A stretch of 64,000 nucleotides of DNA from Chloroflexota bacterium (GTDB lineage Bacteria > Chloroflexota > Dehalococcoidia > CAUJGQ01): assembly GCA_963170165.1 (NCBI GenBank), contig CAUJGQ010000138.1, forward strand, positions 1-64,000, given 5' to 3'. Positions 4,328-37,305 of this stretch are shown in pieces (within the stretch, counting starts at the first letter, position 1; every line of letters begins with the position of its first letter). The notes below the pieces were generated by a model. The model had not been told where the DNA came from. It searched no databases and worked only from the letters and a program-made list of their open reading frames with translations. The translations under genes were made by a program, and so were the position numbers.

Positions 4328-4813
4328 CTACTCGGTGGGCGGCTCGGCCGGAGGTGGCTCATCGCTCGGCGGCGGATCGGCGGCCGGCGGCTCGGCCGGT
4401 GGCGGCTCCTCACTTGGTGGCGGCCCTTCGCTTGGCGGCGCGGCGGGCGGCGGTGTCGCGCTCCCGCTGGCGGCCGTCAGATCAAGCGGAATGAAGTGCC
4501 CCAGCTGGAAACTGCCGGTCTGATCCGCGTTGGCGCCGTTCACCGTGAAGCGGATGGAGGAGCCCTCCTCGCCGCAGCCGGATTGCGTGGCGCTGGACTT
4601 GACATCGAGCACGTAGCGGCCGGCGTCAGTGGTCGTGGCGCGGCCGCACTCGACGTCGTTGATGTAGGCAACCACCTCCGTGCCGGCCGGCGCGGGGCTG
4701 CCATCGAGGCTAATGGCGCCGAAGAACCGGGCAGGGGGCGTCTGAGCGTGGACCGGCACGGCGGCAATCGCCAACGTCACCAGCGCGAGAATGGGGAACC
4801 ATCGATGTCTCAC
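4328..4813 (-). CDS. Secreted protein with Pro/Glu-rich tail
   Basis: The GTG at 4813 is preferred (about 161 residues): it begins VRHRWFPILALVTLAI, a signal peptide ending near VHAQT, and an AAGGAG lies 11 bases upstream. A frame open to 4876 would bury the signal sequence. After the signal comes a ~95-residue beta-rich module (GAISLDGSPAPAGTEVVAYI, then GRYVLDV and SSIRFTVNG) like the small carboxypeptidase-regulatory/transthyretin-like modules, with two cysteines that could pair. The last ~45 residues are a PPSE/PPAE/PPSD repeat, probably an extended spacer in the cell envelope. No function is recognised. Confidence 0.7.
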   Translation of the reverse strand: MRHRWFPILALVTLAIAAVPVHAQTPPARFFGAISLDGSPAPAGTEVVAYINDVECGRATTTDAGRYVLDVKSSATQSGCGEEGSSIRFTVNGANADQTGSFQLGHFIPLDLTAASGSATPPPAAPPSEGPPPSEEPPPAEPPAADPPPSDEPPPAEPPTE

Positions 4814-27207: not shown

Positions 27208-28230
27208 GTGGACCTGCATCAACTTGAGTACCTACGGGCGGTGGTGCGGGCGGGAAGCGTCACCCGTGCGGCGGAGCAGGCGCACATCTCCCAACCGGCT
27301 ATCAGCAAGCAGATAAGGCTGCTGGAATCGGAATTGGGGACGCCGTTGTTCCACCGGGTCGGGCGGCGGGTGGTACCCACGGAGGCAGGCGCGCTGCTGG
27401 CCGCCTGCGCCGAGCGCATATTCGATGACCTCGCTGCTACCACGGACGCCTTGGCGCAACTCGCCACCGCTGCTCGCGGCACGTTGCGGCTGTGCGCGAC
27501 AGAGACGGTGACGGACAACCTGTTGCCGCTGGCGCTGGCTGACTTGCAGCGGCGCAGCCCCGGCGTCCACGTGACGGTAGAGATGACCGGCACAGATGAC
27601 GCCATCGCGCGGGTACTGGCGGATGACGCCGACTTCGCTCTGGTGGTGTTGCCGCTGGCGGATTCACGCCTGGATATCACACCACTCTTCGAGGAGGCGA
27701 TCCTCCTGGCGGTGCCCTTGGCTCATCCGTGGGCCACCCTCGGGCAGGCGCCACTGGCCGAGGCGCTGGCCGGAGATGCGCTGCTGCTGTCGATGCCCGG
27801 TCATGGGTTACGCGCACAACTGGAGCGGGAGGCACAGGCACGGGGGCTGCGGCTGGACGGACCGGTGGACCTGCGCTCGCAGCGGGCGCTGCTGGAGTTG
27901 GTGGCGCTGGGGGCAGGCATCGCCTTCGCCCCAGCACTGAGCCTGCGGGATTTCGCCGGGCGGGTAGCGGTGCTCATCCCAGAGCCGCCACTCGTGCGAG
28001 CCGTCGGGGTGGTCACCCGCCGCGGCCGGCGCATTTCCCCGGCGGGAGCATTGCTGCTGGAGCTGCTCCGGGCGAAGCTGCCCGAGGTATCGCCCGATCA
28101 CTCCCCTACCGTCTCATTATCTGCCGGCTCGTCATCCTCATCCTCATCGGCGTCCTCCCAGATCTCGGCCAAGCGCAGCTCGAAACCAGGAACGACATCC
28201 TCGCCGGAGAGAATACCGTCCGCACCGTAG
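27208..28230 (+). CDS. LysR-family transcriptional regulator with read-through tail
   Basis: 340 residues from the GTG at 27208; the frame continues to 27124, but that part would cover the operator. Residues 1-60 are the winged helix-turn-helix (LHQLEYLRAVVRAGSVTRAA, SQPAISKQIRLLESELGTPL). Residues ~88-290 are the effector-binding domain (GTLRLCATETVTDNLLPL). The typical family length would end near 28098. Instead the frame runs 44 codons further, antisense through the Uma2 gene, adding a Ser-rich tail (SSSSSSSASS). That tail looks like loss of a stop rather than a functional domain. Ligand unknown; the context suggests branched-chain amino acid control. Confidence 0.88.
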   Translation: MDLHQLEYLRAVVRAGSVTRAAEQAHISQPAISKQIRLLESELGTPLFHRVGRRVVPTEAGALLAACAERIFDDLAATTDALAQLATAARGTLRLCATETVTDNLLPLALADLQRRSPGVHVTVEMTGTDDAIARVLADDADFALVVLPLADSRLDITPLFEEAILLAVPLAHPWATLGQAPLAEALAGDALLLSMPGHGLRAQLEREAQARGLRLDGPVDLRSQRALLELVALGAGIAFAPALSLRDFAGRVAVLIPEPPLVRAVGVVTRRGRRISPAGALLLELLRAKLPEVSPDHSPTVSLSAGSSSSSSSASSQISAKRSSKPGTTSSPERIPSAP

Positions 28231-28727
28231 ACCTCGGTCGAGCCATCGGCGCGATAGACAATTGCCTCGCGGTCGCTCGGATCAAGAACCCAGACGAGTT
28301 GCGCTCCGGCGCGAAGATATTGTTGCACCTTGCGCACCACCTGGGCGAAGCGGTCCGTTGGTGACAGCACTTCAACCACAAGATCGGGCGCGCCGTCCTG
28401 GAACCCACGGGTCAGCTTCCCGCGCTTCAGCCGCTCCTGCCGCGTGAAGGCGACATCAGGGGAGCGGACAAGATCCGGGTTCGTCGCAAGCTTCGCCCCA
28501 TGGTCAGCGCCGCTGACCTTGCCCAGCCTGTGATCACGAACGTACGGTCCTAGACGAATGGCGATATTCATCGCAACCGTGCTTGAGATCCATGAGGCGG
28601 GGCACACTTCCACAAGCCTCCCGTCAATCAACTCGTACCGTTTGCCGCCGTCGGGCATGGCGAGCAGGTCATCGGCGGTCATCAGTGGTTGGAGCGGCGC
28701 GGCGGTCATCTCAGCACCCCATGGCAA
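28098..28727 (-). CDS. Uma2-family restriction endonuclease-like protein (copy 1)
   Basis: 209 residues. It has the PD-(D/E)XK pattern of the Uma2/DUF820 family: YELIDGRLVEVCPAS near the N-terminus, LVRSPDVAFTRQERL, then PDLVVEVLSPTDRFAQVVRKV with the acidic-lysine site and GAQLVWVLDP. The C-terminal ~20 residues are very acidic (EDADEDEDDEPADNE). The family is abundant in Chloroflexota and Cyanobacteria, and its cellular job is poorly known. Its 3' end overlaps the LysR gene on the other strand by 133 bases. Confidence 0.87.
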   Translation of the reverse strand: MPWGAEMTAAPLQPLMTADDLLAMPDGGKRYELIDGRLVEVCPASWISSTVAMNIAIRLGPYVRDHRLGKVSGADHGAKLATNPDLVRSPDVAFTRQERLKRGKLTRGFQDGAPDLVVEVLSPTDRFAQVVRKVQQYLRAGAQLVWVLDPSDREAIVYRADGSTEVYGADGILSGEDVVPGFELRLAEIWEDADEDEDDEPADNETVGE

Positions 28728-29619: not shown

Positions 29620-31167
29620 CTACACGGGCACGATCCGCTGCTCCGCCTTGCCGGCACGCAGGGCGAGCAGGCGATTGAGGGCGTTCATGTACGCCTTGGC
29701 CGAGGCAACGATGATGTCGGTGTCGGCGCCACGGCCGGTATAGGTACGGCCGCCCGCCTCGATGCGGATGATCACCTCACCTTGGGCGTCGATGCCCTCG
29801 GTGACGCTCTTGACGGTGTACTCGCTGAGGGTGTTGGGCTCGCCGACAATGCGGTTGATGGCCTTGTAGACGGCATCCACCGGGCCGTCACCGACGGCGG
29901 CGTCCTCAATGCGATCGCCCTCTTTGTTCACCAGGCGGACCGTGGCCGTCGGGCGGATGGTGTCGCCAGCGGAGACATGCACCCGCTCCAGCAGCCAGGT
30001 GGCATCAGCGCTGCGTGACTCATCGCTGAGCAGCGCTTCCAGGTCGCGGTCATCTACTTCGGTCTTCTTGTCGGCCAGGTCCTTGAACCGCACAAAGATG
30101 CGATCGAGATCCTCCTGGGTCAGCTCGTAGCCCAGTTCCTCCAGCCGCTTCTTTAGCCCGGCACGGCCCGAGACCTTGGTGAGCACGATCTTGGTCGCCT
30201 CGGGGTGACCAATCTCGCGCGGGTCCATGATCTCGAAGTTCTCGCGCAGCTTGATCACCGCGTCCTGATGGATACCGGAGGCGTGGCGGAAGGCGTTAAG
30301 GCCTACCACGGCCTTGTTCGGCTGAACGACAATGCCGGTGAGGTCAGAGACCAGGCGTGAGGTGCGGTACAGCTCGCGGGTGTTGACGCCGATATCGACG
30401 CCGGAGCGGTCCTGGCGCGTCTTGAGCGCCATCACCACCTCCTCCAGCGAGGCGTTGCCGGCGCGCTCGCCCAGGCCATTGACGCATACCTCGATCTGGC
30501 GTGCTCCCGCCCGCACCGCCGCCAGCGAGTTGGCCGTTGCCAGGCCAAGGTCGTTGTGGCAGTGCACGGAGACCACCGCCCGGTGGATGTTCTTCACGTT
30601 CTCGTAGATGCCGCGCAGCATCTCCTCGAACTCCTGCGGCACGGTATAGCCCACCGTGTCGGGGATGTTGACCGTCGTTGCCCCGGCGTCGATCACTGCC
30701 TCCAGCAACTGGTACAGGTAACGGGGGTCAGAGCGGGTAGCGTCCATCGGCGAGAACTCGACGTCCTCCACCGCCTCGCGCGCGCGCCTGACGGCGGCCA
30801 CGGCCTGAAGCAGCACCCCCTCGCGATCCTTCTGCATCTGGTGAAGCAGGTGGATATCCGACGAGGAGATGAAGCAGTGGATACGCGGGTCCAGTGCCCC
30901 TTCCATCGCTTGGATCGCTGCTTCGACGTCGCCGGAAACGCAGCGCGAGAGGGTGGCGATGCGTGGCCCCTTGACGGTGCGGGCGATAGCGCGCACGGCC
31001 TCGAAGTCACCAGGGGAGGAGGCGGCAAATCCCGCCTCGATCACATCCACGCCCGTCTTGGCGAGCTGGAGCGCGATCTCCATTTTGTCGTCGGCGTTGA
31101 GCGCCACACCGGCGGTCTGCTCACCGTCGCGCAGGGTGGTGTCGAAGATGATGACGCGGTCTGCCAT
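29620..31167 (-). CDS. leuA: 2-isopropylmalate synthase
   Basis: 515 residues from the ATG at 31167 (GAGGAG 10 bases upstream). An upstream frame to 31317 runs through the attenuator and is not the real start. It condenses acetyl-CoA with 2-oxoisovalerate, the committed step to leucine. Marks: IIFDTTLRDGEQTAGVAL (catalytic Arg/Asp/Glu), VSVHCHNDLGLATANSL (metal HxH), GLGERAGNASLEEVVMAL, and a C-terminal LeuA dimer/allosteric domain from about residue 375 (GDTIRPTATVRLVNKEGD), so feedback inhibition by leucine is expected. Expression appears to be controlled by the leader peptide and hairpin directly upstream. Confidence 0.96.
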   Translation of the reverse strand: MADRVIIFDTTLRDGEQTAGVALNADDKMEIALQLAKTGVDVIEAGFAASSPGDFEAVRAIARTVKGPRIATLSRCVSGDVEAAIQAMEGALDPRIHCFISSSDIHLLHQMQKDREGVLLQAVAAVRRAREAVEDVEFSPMDATRSDPRYLYQLLEAVIDAGATTVNIPDTVGYTVPQEFEEMLRGIYENVKNIHRAVVSVHCHNDLGLATANSLAAVRAGARQIEVCVNGLGERAGNASLEEVVMALKTRQDRSGVDIGVNTRELYRTSRLVSDLTGIVVQPNKAVVGLNAFRHASGIHQDAVIKLRENFEIMDPREIGHPEATKIVLTKVSGRAGLKKRLEELGYELTQEDLDRIFVRFKDLADKKTEVDDRDLEALLSDESRSADATWLLERVHVSAGDTIRPTATVRLVNKEGDRIEDAAVGDGPVDAVYKAINRIVGEPNTLSEYTVKSVTEGIDAQGEVIIRIEAGGRTYTGRGADTDIIVASAKAYMNALNRLLALRAGKAEQRIVPV

Positions 31168-31248
31168 TGCAGGTGTTCTCCTCGGGCTGCATTGTCGTGT
31201 ATGGAATCGTTGCTCACATCCAGCTGCGCACACGCGGCAGCGGCTTGC

Positions 31249-31286
31249 CCGGCCCTCCGACCCGTGGTTAGCGGGCCGAGGGCCGG
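31249..31286 (-). promoter_or_regulatory. leuA attenuator hairpin
   Basis: In the RNA, CCGGCCCTC plus GCCCG pair with CGGG plus GAGGGCCGG to give about 15 base pairs with one bulge, closing a loop that contains the leader-peptide stop codon. The 5' arm begins three bases after the leader's last Leu codon, so a ribosome waiting there would block folding. It is not followed by a T run; it may act as a Rho-type or pausing attenuator, or occlude translation. Confidence 0.7.
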
Positions 31287-31333
31287 CGAAGGAGGAGACC
31301 TGGTAACCAGGCGTCACAGCGTCGATGCGTCAT
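31268..31333 (-). CDS. leuA leader peptide (21 codons)
   Basis: ATG at 31333 with AGGTGG three bases upstream; TAA at 31268-31270. The peptide reads MTHRRCDAWLPGLLLRRPSAR as far as the stop (21 residues); the control run is WLPGLLL, encoded TTA and CTC CTC CTT. The ATG overlaps the stop of the upstream Uma2 gene (ATGA), so ribosomes leaving that gene could start here. A short Leu-rich peptide next to a stable hairpin in front of leuA is the classical layout of ribosome-mediated attenuation in high-GC bacteria. There is no experimental proof, but the combination is hard to explain by chance. Confidence 0.8.
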   Translation of the reverse strand: MTHRRCDAWLPGLLLRRPSAR

Positions 31334-32199
31334 TGACCACCTGCCGCTCCACCATTCACATCGCCAAATCGCGCACGGTAACGGGCGAGAAGCGCCTCAA
31401 GTTCTGCGACGCGGCGCCGCTCGGCCTCGGCAGCTAGCTCGGCACCGCCGCGCGCCCGCCGCTCCGCCTCGGCGCGGGTGCGCTCTTGATCAGCGCGGAG
31501 GTTCTCCATGTCAGCGCGGATGCGTTCGGCTTCTGCCCGAGCATGCTCGGCTTCTTCGCGGGTGGGCAGCACGGAGCCATCGACCGTGGCCCAACGCAGC
31601 CATGTCCCACCCCGTGCCTGATAGCTGCCCTCCCAAAGTACGAGCGACAGCCCCAACACGGGACAGGGCAACCGCCCCTCACGGTCACGATCCAGCGGCT
31701 GGTAGAGCCGTTCCTCTGGCGACAGCAGCAACCCCACCAACTCCTGTGACTCCGGGTCATACCAGACGTACTGCGGCACACGCATCAGGTCTTGATAGAT
31801 GCGTCGCTTCTCACCTCGATCCCTGGCGCGGGTGCGAGGTGACAGAATCTGGATCACGACGTCCGGACCCTTGCCCTCTTGCCAGATCACCCAGCTCTTA
31901 CGCTGGCGATCCGGCACATCGAACACGACGTAGACATCTGGTCCGAGGAAGTCGCTATTGCGCACCTGCTCCAGGCTGTAGTAGATGATCTGGTTCTTCC
32001 CGACATAGACGTTCTGGCCGGCGTAGTGCAGCCGAAGCGTCTCAAAGAGCAGATCCATCTGGAGTGCCTGTCGCTCGGTGTCCATCGGCATCCCATCGGT
32101 CTCGGGCAGTTCATCCTCGGTCGGGGGCGCCTCGACACCCAGTTCCGCGAGGAGTGCCCGGTCATCGTCGGTCAGGATCCACTCGCGCTGCTGTGTCAT
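31330..32199 (-). CDS. Uma2-family protein with C-terminal coiled coil (copy 2)
   Basis: 289 residues; GAGGTC precedes the ATG. The Uma2 core occupies about residues 40-200 (IIYYSLEQVRNSDFLGPDVY, KGPDVVIQILSPRTRARDRG, PQYVWYDPESQELVG). After residue ~215 comes a heptad-like charged coiled coil (EEAEHARAEAERIRADMENL and on), a common addition in this family. It probably oligomerises. It is upstream of leuA and shares the ATGA junction with the leuA leader peptide. Confidence 0.87.
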   Translation of the reverse strand: MTQQREWILTDDDRALLAELGVEAPPTEDELPETDGMPMDTERQALQMDLLFETLRLHYAGQNVYVGKNQIIYYSLEQVRNSDFLGPDVYVVFDVPDRQRKSWVIWQEGKGPDVVIQILSPRTRARDRGEKRRIYQDLMRVPQYVWYDPESQELVGLLLSPEERLYQPLDRDREGRLPCPVLGLSLVLWEGSYQARGGTWLRWATVDGSVLPTREEAEHARAEAERIRADMENLRADQERTRAEAERRARGGAELAAEAERRRVAELEALLARYRARFGDVNGGAAGGQ

Positions 32200-34304: not shown

Positions 34305-34886
34305 CTAATCGCTCACATACGGCATCGCGCCATTCGGGCGGTGACCGATGCGGGCATGGGCGGCGGCGGCGGCGGCGGCTTTGGCGTCGTCCACGTGCAC
34401 GGTGCTCGCGCCGCGGCCCATCGCCAGCCGGCCGGTGCGGGCCAGTTCGGCGATACCGAACGGCTTCATCGTGCGCAGCACGTTGTCGATGTGATCACCA
34501 TCACCCACTACCTCCAGGATGACGGACGAGTCCGACACATCGGCCACGTGTGCACCGAACACCCCCGCAAGCTGGATCACCTCACCGCGCTTGCCATTGG
34601 AACAGCGCACCTTGATCAGCGCCAGCTCGCGCGCCACCATCCCCTTGTGGGTGATGTCCGCCACCTTGACCACGTCGATCAGCTTGTAGAGCTGCTTTTC
34701 GACCTGTTCCACCTGGGTGGTCGAGCCATCCACTACGATGGTCATGCGCGACAGGCCGTCCTGTTCGGTCTGGCCGACGGCCAGACTCTCGATGTTGAAG
34801 CCACGCCGCCGGAACAGCGAGGCCACCCGGTTCAGCACGCCCGGCCGGTCCTCGACCAGGGCGATGACGGTATGCTTGTTGCTCAT
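34305..34886 (-). CDS. ilvN: Acetolactate synthase small (regulatory) subunit
   Basis: 193 residues; GAGGAG precedes the ATG. The N-terminal ACT domain (HTVIALVEDRPGVLNRVASL, RRGFNIESLAVGQTE) binds valine and confers feedback inhibition on the catalytic subunit. The C-terminal ALS_ss_C domain follows (LALIKVRCSNGKRGEVIQLA, FGIAELARTGRLAMGRG). Length is a little above the usual ~165, with an Ala-rich end. It follows ilvB by 71 bases in the same transcript. Confidence 0.94.
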   Translation of the reverse strand: MSNKHTVIALVEDRPGVLNRVASLFRRRGFNIESLAVGQTEQDGLSRMTIVVDGSTTQVEQVEKQLYKLIDVVKVADITHKGMVARELALIKVRCSNGKRGEVIQLAGVFGAHVADVSDSSVILEVVGDGDHIDNVLRTMKPFGIAELARTGRLAMGRGASTVHVDDAKAAAAAAAHARIGHRPNGAMPYVSD

Positions 34887-34957: not shown

Positions 34958-36688
34958 CTAGCTGACGAGCTGGCCCGTCTTCTTGCGTGCTTCCACCAAC
35001 GTCGGGTCCTCGATGGTCTCGGCCAGGGAGGCGCCGGCGGGCACCATCGGCCAGACGTTCTCCTCGGTCATCACCCGGAAATCGAGCAACACCGGACCGG
35101 GGTAGGCGTTCGCCTCCTCGATGGCGGCGCGCACCTTCTGCTTCTCAGTGACACGGATCGCCTTGATGCCATACGCATCCGCCAGCTTGACGAAGTCCGG
35201 CTGGCAGACGGTGGTCCGCAGGTCGTTGTCAACGTGGTTCTCGTTGTAGAACAGCTGCTGCCACTGGCGGATCATGCCCAGCACGCCGTTGTTGAGGATC
35301 GCCATCTTCACCGGCGCGCGCATATCGACGATGGTGGCCAGTTCCTGGATGTTCATCTGGAAGCCGCCGTCACCGCAGATGCTCCACACCAGCTCGCCGG
35401 GTCGGGCCATCTGCGCCCCCAGCGCCGCCGGCACCTCGAAGCCCATCGTGCCCAGGCCACCGGAGGTGATCAGCGTGCGCGGCCGGCGGAACACCCACTG
35501 CTGGCCGGTCCACATCTGATGCTGGCCTACGCCGGTGACAACCACCGCTTCACCACCGCACGCCTCGTAGATCTCCCGCACCACGTACTGCGAGGAGATA
35601 TCCTGGCCCTTGGTCTCGGGCAGGGTGAAGGAGGGATGCTCGCGGCGCAGGTCGTCGATCCATTGCAGCCATTCCAGGTGGGTGTTCTGCTTGACGATGG
35701 GAATCAGCTGTTCCAGCACCTGGCGGGCGTCGCCGACGATCGGCACCTCGGTCTTGATATTCTTGCCGATCTCCGCCGGGTCGATGTCAATGTGAATCAC
35801 GCGAGCGGTGGGGTTGAAGTCGGAGAAGCGGCCCATCGCTCGGTCGTCAAAGCGCATCCCGATGCCAATGACGACGTCAGCGTTGTTGGCAGCGTGGTTG
35901 CAGTGGTAGGCGCCGTGCATCCCCATCCAGCCGATGTTGAGGATGTGGTCGCCCGGCATGGCGCCGATGCCGAGGAAGGTGCTCATCACCGGGATCTGCG
36001 CCTTCTCCGCCAGCGCCTTGAGCTCGGCCGAAGCGCCGGACCAGATGATGCCGTGGCCGGCCAGGATCACGGGCCGCTTCGCCTCGTCAATGAGGCGGGC
36101 AGCACGTTTGACCTGCCCCATGTGTCCCTGGGTGGTGGGCTTGTAGGAGCGGATGCTGATCTCCTCCGGCCACTCAAACTCAGCAAACTCCTGGAATACA
36201 TCCTTGGGAATGTCAACATGCACGGGGCCGGGCCGGCCGCTGGCGGCGATGTAGAACGCCTCGCGGATGACGGTGGCAATCTCGCTCGCCTTCATCACCA
36301 GATAGTTATGCTTGACGATCGGCAGGGTGATACCAGTGATGTCCGCCTCTTGAAAGCCGTCGCGGCCCAGCAGGTTGCGAGAGACGTTGCCGGTCAGCAC
36401 CACCATCGGCACCGAGTCCATCATGGCCGTACAGATGCCGGTGACGAGATTGGTGGCGCCGGGTCCGGAGGTACCCAGGCAGACGCCGACCTTTCCGGAG
36501 GCGCGGGCGTAGCCGTCGGCCATGTGCGCGCCGCCTTGCTCGTGCCGCACCAGCACATGCTTGAGCTGCGGGAACTTGGGGAACTCGTCGTACAGAGGCA
36601 GCACCACGCCGCCCGGGTAACCGTAGATCACCTCCACGCCCTCACGGACGAGGCTTTCCAGCAGGATCTGTGCGCCATTCATTCGCAT
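34958..36688 (-). CDS. ilvB: Acetolactate synthase large (catalytic) subunit
   Basis: 576 residues from the ATG at 36688, placed 10 bases after GGAGAG; another ATG at 36706 lacks a site. It is a ThDP enzyme that joins two pyruvates (or pyruvate and 2-oxobutyrate) in valine, leucine and isoleucine synthesis. Marks: YGYPGGVVLPLYDEF, the ThDP-activating Glu in RHEQGGAHMADGYARASG, GRPGPVHVDIPKDV, and the Mg/ThDP motif GDGGFQMNIQELATI. Complete. It heads the operon and is preceded by a T-box and a second leader-peptide attenuator. Confidence 0.96.
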   Translation of the reverse strand: MRMNGAQILLESLVREGVEVIYGYPGGVVLPLYDEFPKFPQLKHVLVRHEQGGAHMADGYARASGKVGVCLGTSGPGATNLVTGICTAMMDSVPMVVLTGNVSRNLLGRDGFQEADITGITLPIVKHNYLVMKASEIATVIREAFYIAASGRPGPVHVDIPKDVFQEFAEFEWPEEISIRSYKPTTQGHMGQVKRAARLIDEAKRPVILAGHGIIWSGASAELKALAEKAQIPVMSTFLGIGAMPGDHILNIGWMGMHGAYHCNHAANNADVVIGIGMRFDDRAMGRFSDFNPTARVIHIDIDPAEIGKNIKTEVPIVGDARQVLEQLIPIVKQNTHLEWLQWIDDLRREHPSFTLPETKGQDISSQYVVREIYEACGGEAVVVTGVGQHQMWTGQQWVFRRPRTLITSGGLGTMGFEVPAALGAQMARPGELVWSICGDGGFQMNIQELATIVDMRAPVKMAILNNGVLGMIRQWQQLFYNENHVDNDLRTTVCQPDFVKLADAYGIKAIRVTEKQKVRAAIEEANAYPGPVLLDFRVMTEENVWPMVPAGASLAETIEDPTLVEARKKTGQLVS

Positions 36689-36840
36689 TGCGGGTCTGCT
36701 CTCCATTGATCAGGATGGGCGTCTCACCGTTGGCTCCGCCACGCTCCCGCTACCATGCCGCCCCGTGACTGCGGGGCGGGCGTCCTTCCTCGTCCGTCTG
36801 AACACATGCTGGTTGATCCTCGTCCGGCCGGCGCACACAA

Positions 36841-36876
36841 GAGCGGCGGCCGGTTTGCTGTCCCTGGCCGCCGCTC
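36841..36876 (-). terminator. Second ilvB attenuator hairpin
   Basis: In RNA order, GAGCGGCGGCC and GGCCGCCGCTC form a perfect 11-bp stem with a 14-base loop, followed by TTGTGTG, 26 bases after the leader-peptide stop. Its 5' arm (GAGCGG) can also pair with CCGCTC inside the leader's Leu/Val codons, giving a possible alternative fold. A further 8-bp hairpin at 36758-36779 lies nearer ilvB. Confidence 0.65.
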
Positions 36877-36902
36877 CGGTTACACGTCAGATGGAGCCAC
36901 GG

Positions 36903-37004
36903 TCAGGGGCCGAGAAGTAGTACGACGAGCGCTACGAGCGGTAGCGCGGCACGCACGGTCACGCGCGGAGCCGGATTGTGTGCCATCACCCGTGTCAGCG
37001 CCAT
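36903..37004 (-). CDS. ilvB leader peptide (33 codons, Leu/Val run)
   Basis: ATG at 37004 (CAGGGGGCAG upstream), TGA at 36903-36905. It starts 25 bases after the T-box terminator T run and ends LPLVALVVLLLGP. This part uses CTA, CTC, CTC, CTA, CTT, CTC for Leu and GTA, GTC, GTA for Val, with no Ile; CTA, CTT and GTA are uncommon elsewhere in this GC-rich window. The Leu/Val-rich end and the stable hairpin after the stop are what one expects from a translation-coupled attenuator for an ilvBN operon. A hairpin (GCGCTAC/GTAGCGC, 36929-36947) lies within the control codons. Confidence 0.8.
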   Translation of the reverse strand: MALTRVMAHNPAPRVTVRAALPLVALVVLLLGP

Positions 37005-37028
37005 TGCGCTGCCCCCTGCGAACCGTAC

Positions 37029-37268
37029 AAAAAAGCCCGTCCCCGGCAAGGGACGGGACATGCCCGCGGTACCACCCTCGTTCCTCTCGCGTGGAGAGGC
37101 ACTTTCACGCGCGCTAACGGGCGCAACCCGGAGCCGGGTACTGCTACTTCCCCGGTTCGGCTCAGGAGCGAGTTCCGGCCTGCGCCGCCGCCGGGCTTGC
37201 ACCATTCCCGGCTCGCTGGTGCGGAAGAGGGCCGTACTACTCTCCGTCACAGCCGCTGCTATTACTAG
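37029..37268 (-). ncRNA. T-box leader, Leu (CUC) specifier, upstream of ilvB
   Basis: The T-box sequence AGGGTGGTACCGCGG is at 37078-37064. It is followed by the terminator CCCGTCCC/GGGACGGG and TTTTTT (37057-37029), whose 5' side overlaps the region used for the antiterminator. Stem I is bounded by CGGCT (37255-37251) and AGCCG (37162-37158) and includes the typical GAGCCGGGAATGGTGCAAGCC apex element, given here only in part as GAGCCGGGAATGG. Aligned to B. subtilis glyQS (GAAA-GGC then UUCUUGAGC), the specifier falls on CTC at 37172-37170, a leucine codon. Uncharged tRNA-Leu should permit read-through into ilvB. Confidence 0.92.
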
Positions 37269-37275
37269 CTTCCGT

Positions 37276-37305
37276 ACCGTACGCAATCACTCCGCAACGT
37301 GTCAA
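37276..37305 (-). promoter_or_regulatory. Promoter of the ilvB T-box transcript
   Basis: TTGACA (37305-37300) and TACGGT (37281-37276), 18-base spacer, on the minus strand. The predicted start, near 37268, is about 13 bases before T-box stem I, which is the expected geometry. Confidence 0.75.

Follow-up and report, generated by a model that had tools for sequence, protein, structure and literature searches.

In a bacterium of the Chloroflexota, the acetolactate synthase genes ilvB and ilvN are probably governed by two checkpoints arranged in series on one RNA, a T-box followed by an attenuator that is read by a ribosome. We analysed a 64,000-nucleotide stretch of contig CAUJGQ010000138.1 (hereafter the window), and the whole evidence base is computational. 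A first-pass annotation had proposed a T-box, a leader peptide and a hairpin stacked ahead of ilvB; every part is indeed present in the sequence, with the orientation corrected to the minus strand, and the stack recurs in relatives. The arrangement turns up in eleven more of the species sampled in the phylum, and so has the look of a genuine, evolved two-step control and not of an accident.

The ilvB locus and its T-box

All window features given below lie on the minus strand. The large-subunit gene ilvB (34958..36688; Pfam TPP_enzyme N, M and C domains) was assigned its ATG at 36688 by comparison with relatives, a likelier start than the previously proposed 36706. It is followed by ilvN, encoding the small subunit (34305..34886; Pfam ALS_ss_C and ACT_AHAS_ss) and, further downstream, by a leuA-like 2-isopropylmalate synthase gene (29620..31317; Pfam HMGL-like and LeuA_dimer), which is putatively co-transcribed. 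Two genes of the Uma2 family (putative restriction endonuclease fold; 31330-32199 and 28098-28727) flank the leuA-like and methyltransferase genes on the same strand. Of note, a hairpin, CCGCCCCG-CAGTCA-CGGGGCGG, occupies 36779-36758, ~70 nt 5' of ilvB, and in the relative G001 the same place holds CCGTCCCG-CCGTCA-CGGGACGG, with one compensatory pair change.

The T-box leader RNA upstream of ilvB (37046..37259) is a full-length match to Rfam RF00230, scoring 102.4 bits against a gathering score of 93 (E 1.8e-21; model positions 1-219 of 219). In the Rfam alignment its specifier codon is CTC, for leucine (37170..37172; context GGAA-CTC-GCTCC), which fits the regulated pathway. The T-box sequence AGGGTGGTACCGCGG (37064..37078), identified by sequence and by the same alignment, is followed by a terminator found by a terminator scan, CCCGTCCCTTGCCGGGGACGGG with the U-tract TTTTTT (37029..37057); its stem spans 37057-37036, the U-tract spans 37034-37029, and the stem overlaps the T-box helix in the model. 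Judged by its score, its pathway-matched specifier and a terminator alternative to the antiterminator, the element is predicted to be a leucine-type T-box. It shares with other RF00230 members a Stem I carrying the specifier, the T-box sequence, the antiterminator and the terminator, but differs from them in that a second, candidate attenuator separates its T-box terminator from the gene.

The same genome carries other T-boxes (L002, L003, L004 and L005), preceding genes that we named by eye as leuS-, ileS-, trpB-like and thrS-looking; no second leader peptide was seen at any of these T-boxes.

A predicted leader peptide rich in leucine and valine codons

Beyond the T-box lies an open reading frame of 33 amino acids, MALTRVMAHNPAPRVTVRAALPLVALVVLLLGP (36903..37004; ATG at 37004, TGA at 36905-36903), whose peptide ends in ALPLVALVVLLLGP and which we recognized by its Leu/Val/Ile density and by similar frames that follow the T-box in 11 further species. 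The ribosome site that the first-pass annotation had called good does exist, as a Shine-Dalgarno-like AGGGGG (37012..37017) 7 nt from the ATG, but we grade it as fair and not strong. Near the end of the frame, a codon usage test and the ribosome-position model described below single out a putative Leu/Val control block in which rare codons abound, CTA CCG CTC GTA GCG CTC GTC GTA CTA CTT CTC (36912..36944).

None of 1000 dinucleotide shuffles of the post-T-box stretch equalled the Leu/Val/Ile density of this frame; as the leader score was picked post hoc, once the finding was known, the relatives serve as the independent test. There, and in the window, the tandem leader frames were likewise beyond all 1000 shuffles at 9 of 12 loci and were equalled 3-11 times per 1000 at the other three. 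Moreover, the rare codons CTA, CTT and GTA make up 5 of the 13 Leu and Val codons of the leader, where the codon usage of eight genes in the window would predict 0.9 (P = 0.0012). A codon-position comparison of leader peptides found no consistent excess of third-position change in close pairs; these counts give no sign that the peptide sequence as such is conserved or under selection, and the argument rests on composition, codon choice and recurrence. On these grounds the window leader appears enriched in codons for the amino acids of the regulated pathway, as ribosome-mediated attenuators require.

A second hairpin and a predicted ribosome-dependent switch

The leader frame is followed by a second terminator candidate, GAGCGGCGGCC-14 nt-GGCCGCCGCTC and then TTGTGTG (36834..36876; -27.4 kcal/mol). 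Its stem of 11 perfect base pairs and its tail (36840-36834) are as the first-pass annotation described them, with the qualification that the tail makes a weak U-tract; the hairpin spans 36876-36841 and has a 14-nt loop. Upstream, CCCTGACCGTGGCTCC (36893..36908), which includes the stop codon of the peptide, can pair with GGAGCGGCGGCCAGGG (36862..36877), which by folding includes the 5' arm of the terminator. This extended antiterminator (-25.7 kcal/mol) would thus occupy the 5' arm of the 11-bp terminator.

To follow the two structures we modelled the ribosome as a simple mask reaching 13 nt from the A site. With the ribosome stalled at codons -10 to -5, the window antiterminator was kept in the model (0.92-1.00) until the terminator was a few nucleotides short of complete, and with ribosomes at codon -4 up to the stop it was weakened or abolished. 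At equilibrium, the completed terminator, 3' arm included, beat the antiterminator in the model of the window whether or not a ribosome was stalled, and the switch must therefore be decided by co-transcriptional kinetics. In the relative G023 the modelled switch was complete, with a terminator probability of ~0 at most stalled positions and of 1 with the ribosome at the stop. In G532, a species from another class, TTGGGAGGC at the peptide end pairs with GCCTCCCAA of the terminator, and the dependence on ribosome position was weak in the model. The competing pairing was equalled by 3 (window), 2 (G023), 15 (G532) and 8 (G001) of every 1000 shuffles. These results point to mutually exclusive antiterminator and terminator structures, with the choice predicted to be set by ribosome position, in the window, in G023 and, more weakly, in G532. 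The fold z-score of the whole post-T-box stretch was uninformative (-0.55).

Two of the families carrying the stack look different at this step. In neither f17 nor f66 was a U-tract terminator found after the leader, and the pair of hairpins beyond the stop codon in f66 are not mutually exclusive; with no U-rich terminator there, the output of these leaders may be Rho-dependent or translational. Inspection by eye of the f17 leaders for masking of the ilvB ribosome site turned up no conserved case.

Promoter placement predicts a shared transcript

A promoter is predicted upstream of the window T-box (37276..37305), with the -35 element TTGACA (37305-37300), an 18-nt spacer and the -10 element TACGGT (37281-37276), matching 9 of 12 consensus positions. 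The pattern TTGACA-17/18-TANNNT precedes the T-box in all 12 tandem loci (9-11 of 12 matches), whereas none of them has a comparable promoter within 50 nt 5' of the leader, where the best candidates reach 4-7 of 12; a promoter of the leader's own was accordingly rejected as lacking a candidate in any tandem locus. When we examined loci that have a leader and no T-box, the promoter -10 in most of those tested ended 7-10 nt upstream of the leader ATG (8-10 of 12 matches). The exceptions, G063 and G120, may hinge on the start codon chosen. In the window, the T-box U-tract and the leader ATG are separated by a gap of 24 nt. With the T-box between promoter and leader, the two devices should act in series on one transcript, and promoter placement thus suggests that T-box and leader peptide share a single transcript at the 12 loci.

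The stack recurs, and its modules are separable

We compared ilvB upstream regions from the window's own class and phylum, 202 genomes in all and most of them drafts, and found four states: T-box only, Leu/Val leader only, neither, and both in series. Both devices stand in series in 12 species, the window and 11 others, which spread over five families and, on the IlvB tree, over three clades. The families are f1, f23, f17, f66 and f148, the last from another class, and the species group as the window (G000) with G001; G023; G051, G084, G147, G179 and G239; G211, G136 and G190; and G532. Rfam recovered the T-box in all 12, that of G001 with a score (65 bits) under the gathering score. The specifier is CTC at the same place in every one of them (as GAACTC or AACTC), in line with the earlier proposal that this T-box would sense leucine. 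Tandem loci have 295-443 nt separating T-box and ilvB, and nearly all T-box-only loci 70-250 nt. The first-pass annotation had looked to relatives that keep the T-box for conservation of the peptide, and its proposal survives that comparison; many relatives do have a T-box only.

The leader-only state was found in ~30 species of family f2 and in several species from other classes (e.g., MNITIAAGHTSPAARIAGQGLIVVLVLT). The 20 leader-only loci scanned had no match to an Rfam family, and in many leader-only loci U-rich tails lie 3' of the second hairpin. Across the f2 loci (L012, L013 and L084-L116) the peptide ends in LVLVLVLT or similar, with a strong hairpin directly after the TAG stop; next comes a CCCGCGTGTCGGG hairpin, whose tail is U-rich. 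Given that the -10 element sits 7-10 nt from the ATG, the leader mRNA of f2 looks leaderless.

When IlvB from 58 species is arranged in a tree, the tandem state falls in three places, requiring at least 3 changes. Inside one tandem clade, G248 (f66) has a leader without a T-box, and its promoter occupies the place where the T-box would be expected. The T-box and leader modules are separable.

Four loose matches to the T-box motif (in G261, G027, G614 and G193) lie >500 nt from ilvB and were set aside as probable chance. A scan of named genomes by IlvB peptide patterns yielded mostly Anaerolineae and a few Phycisphaerae, hits that, with the kinship of the genomes compared, would place the window in the Chloroflexota; the sole T-box-motif match upstream among them was one with two mismatches. 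In family f33 (L009, L010, L053-L062 and others), which has neither device, the last ~200 nt 5' of ilvB contain a strongly conserved GCGGCTTACCGGCCGC ... CGACCGNATGGCGYGGCRGGC; no Rfam match was obtained for this element in the five f33 loci scanned, and it is possibly an undescribed leader RNA. Near ilvB in the relative G043 we also observed two riboswitches, one for c-di-AMP (66.5 bits) and a partial one for cobalamin (L013:4251-4374, 4568-4680).

Discussion

The elements, their order, their recurrence, the promoter placement and the competing structures all emerge from the computation itself. From them we infer that tRNA is bound, that the peptide is translated with stalling on it, that the second hairpin terminates transcription, and what logic results, as follows. 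A single transcript would start upstream of the T-box and meet two starvation checkpoints ahead of ilvB-ilvN. At the first, the leucine T-box (specifier CUC) would bind uncharged tRNA-Leu, thereby preventing termination at 37057-37029. Having passed the T-box, the polymerase would transcribe the RNA of the 33-codon leader peptide, the second checkpoint. A ribosome reaching the stop freely would cover the 5' arm of the antiterminator, so that the 11-bp hairpin could form and transcription would end near 36834. A ribosome stalled 10 to 5 codons short of the stop, inside the Leu/Val block, would leave that arm free, and the antiterminator would form and ilvB be transcribed.

The earlier suggestion of an AND-type read-out of leucine plus valine starvation is not established by this scheme. 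The T-box reads leucine and the peptide block mixes leucine and valine codons; with leucine codons in both devices, we rejected a clean Leu AND Val gate as unproven. The series logic would be roughly Leu AND (Leu OR Val). Because leucine would be read by both steps and valine by the second only, the expected result is a steeper, tighter response to leucine, with read-through adjusted, or trimmed, by valine.

The main competitor to transcription attenuation at the second step accepts that the T-box and the translated leader are real and in series, and has the leader act through Rho-dependent termination or through control of ilvB translation, in the manner of rtpA of Bacillus subtilis. The weak U-tract of the window and the f17 and f66 leaders without a legible U-tract terminator would suit such a mechanism, as would the B. 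subtilis precedent, which works on translation. It is harder to reconcile with the mutually exclusive antiterminator and terminator hairpins of the window, G023 and G532, which are rare in shuffles, or with the U-rich tails that follow the second hairpin in many leader-only loci, and we regard it as unlikely.

Two further readings would dissolve the series arrangement altogether. If the leader frame had its own promoter, as leader-only relatives do directly 5' of the leader ATG, the devices would sit on different transcripts; the contrast between 0 of 12 comparable promoters next to the leader and 12 of 12 upstream of the T-box, together with the mere 24 nt available in the window, makes this very improbable. 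The notion that the T-box alone is functional and that the Leu/Val-rich frame and its hairpin are chance or relic draws on the peptide showing no sign of selection outside its Leu/Val content. We give it hardly any credence, in view of its recurrence across three clades in 12 species, where shuffles equal it 0-11 times per 1000, the excess of rare codons, and a T-box-ilvB spacing that is longer where the leader is present. Two checkpoints in series, the T-box and then the ribosome-read attenuator, thus remain our preferred reading.

The first-pass annotation had considered such stacking rarely or never described. For branched-chain amino acid operons, the open-access literature turned up no case in which a T-box and ribosome-mediated attenuation are combined in series, but related tandems are known; of those found, B. 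subtilis rtpA and the T-box-Leu/ppGpp tandems come closest. In rtpA, tryptophan is the signal for both devices, and the leader peptide acts by controlling anti-TRAP translation. The tandem of T-box and Trp leader peptide in that (at) operon, and the action of the peptide on translation, are described in PMC11255114 and attributed there to Chen and Yanofsky (2003, 2004). The rtpA operon resembles the present case in placing a T-box and then a translated leader peptide, both starvation sensors, in tandem before one gene. The differences are that rtpA acts on translation and reads Trp, whereas in the Chloroflexota the second device stands before ilvB, contains Leu and Val codons and resembles a transcription attenuator. 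The rtpA-type order of T-box and leader peptide is present in 12 loci, and a competing transcription terminator is predicted in three.

T-box-Leu/ppGpp riboswitch tandems have been proposed as AND gates for branched-chain amino acid genes (2022 survey, PMC9481103), and leader-peptide tandems are absent from the tandem tables of that survey. They too join a leucine T-box, in series, to another ON switch that has its own expression platform, but their second sensor is a ppGpp aptamer and here it would be a translated peptide. Leader peptides upstream of ilvB are known in Actinobacteria, and in S. coelicolor codon changes in the ilvB leader left regulation unaffected (PMC1262725). Like these leaders and the enteric ilv/leu attenuators, the element described here combines a short reading frame, runs of Leu/Val/Ile codons and a terminator; unlike them, it has a T-box in front, which has not been reported there. 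Within the phylum, a 2008 survey listed only ileS and trp T-boxes for two Dehalococcoides (PMC2494555), and the open-access literature yielded nothing that links a Chloroflexi leader peptide to a T-box or to attenuation.

Beyond the window, the evidence tips us slightly towards a broader view: that Chloroflexota have repeatedly joined a T-box and a leader peptide in series, both terminating transcription, to give a gate that is multiplicative for leucine and takes valine as an input, and that the modules have been gained and lost separately. If true, a T-box, which is read before any ribosome acts, would precede a peptide read by the ribosome, placing two unrelated sensors of tRNA charging on one nascent RNA, and the catalogue of tandem RNA switches would gain a protein-coding module. 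T-boxes and leader-peptide attenuators are usually seen as alternatives belonging to different bacterial groups. Within this one phylum, the same gene can be preceded by either device singly or by the stack of both, and close relatives show intermediate states, which would make the gain, the loss and the joint logic of two sensors of the same signal directly testable.
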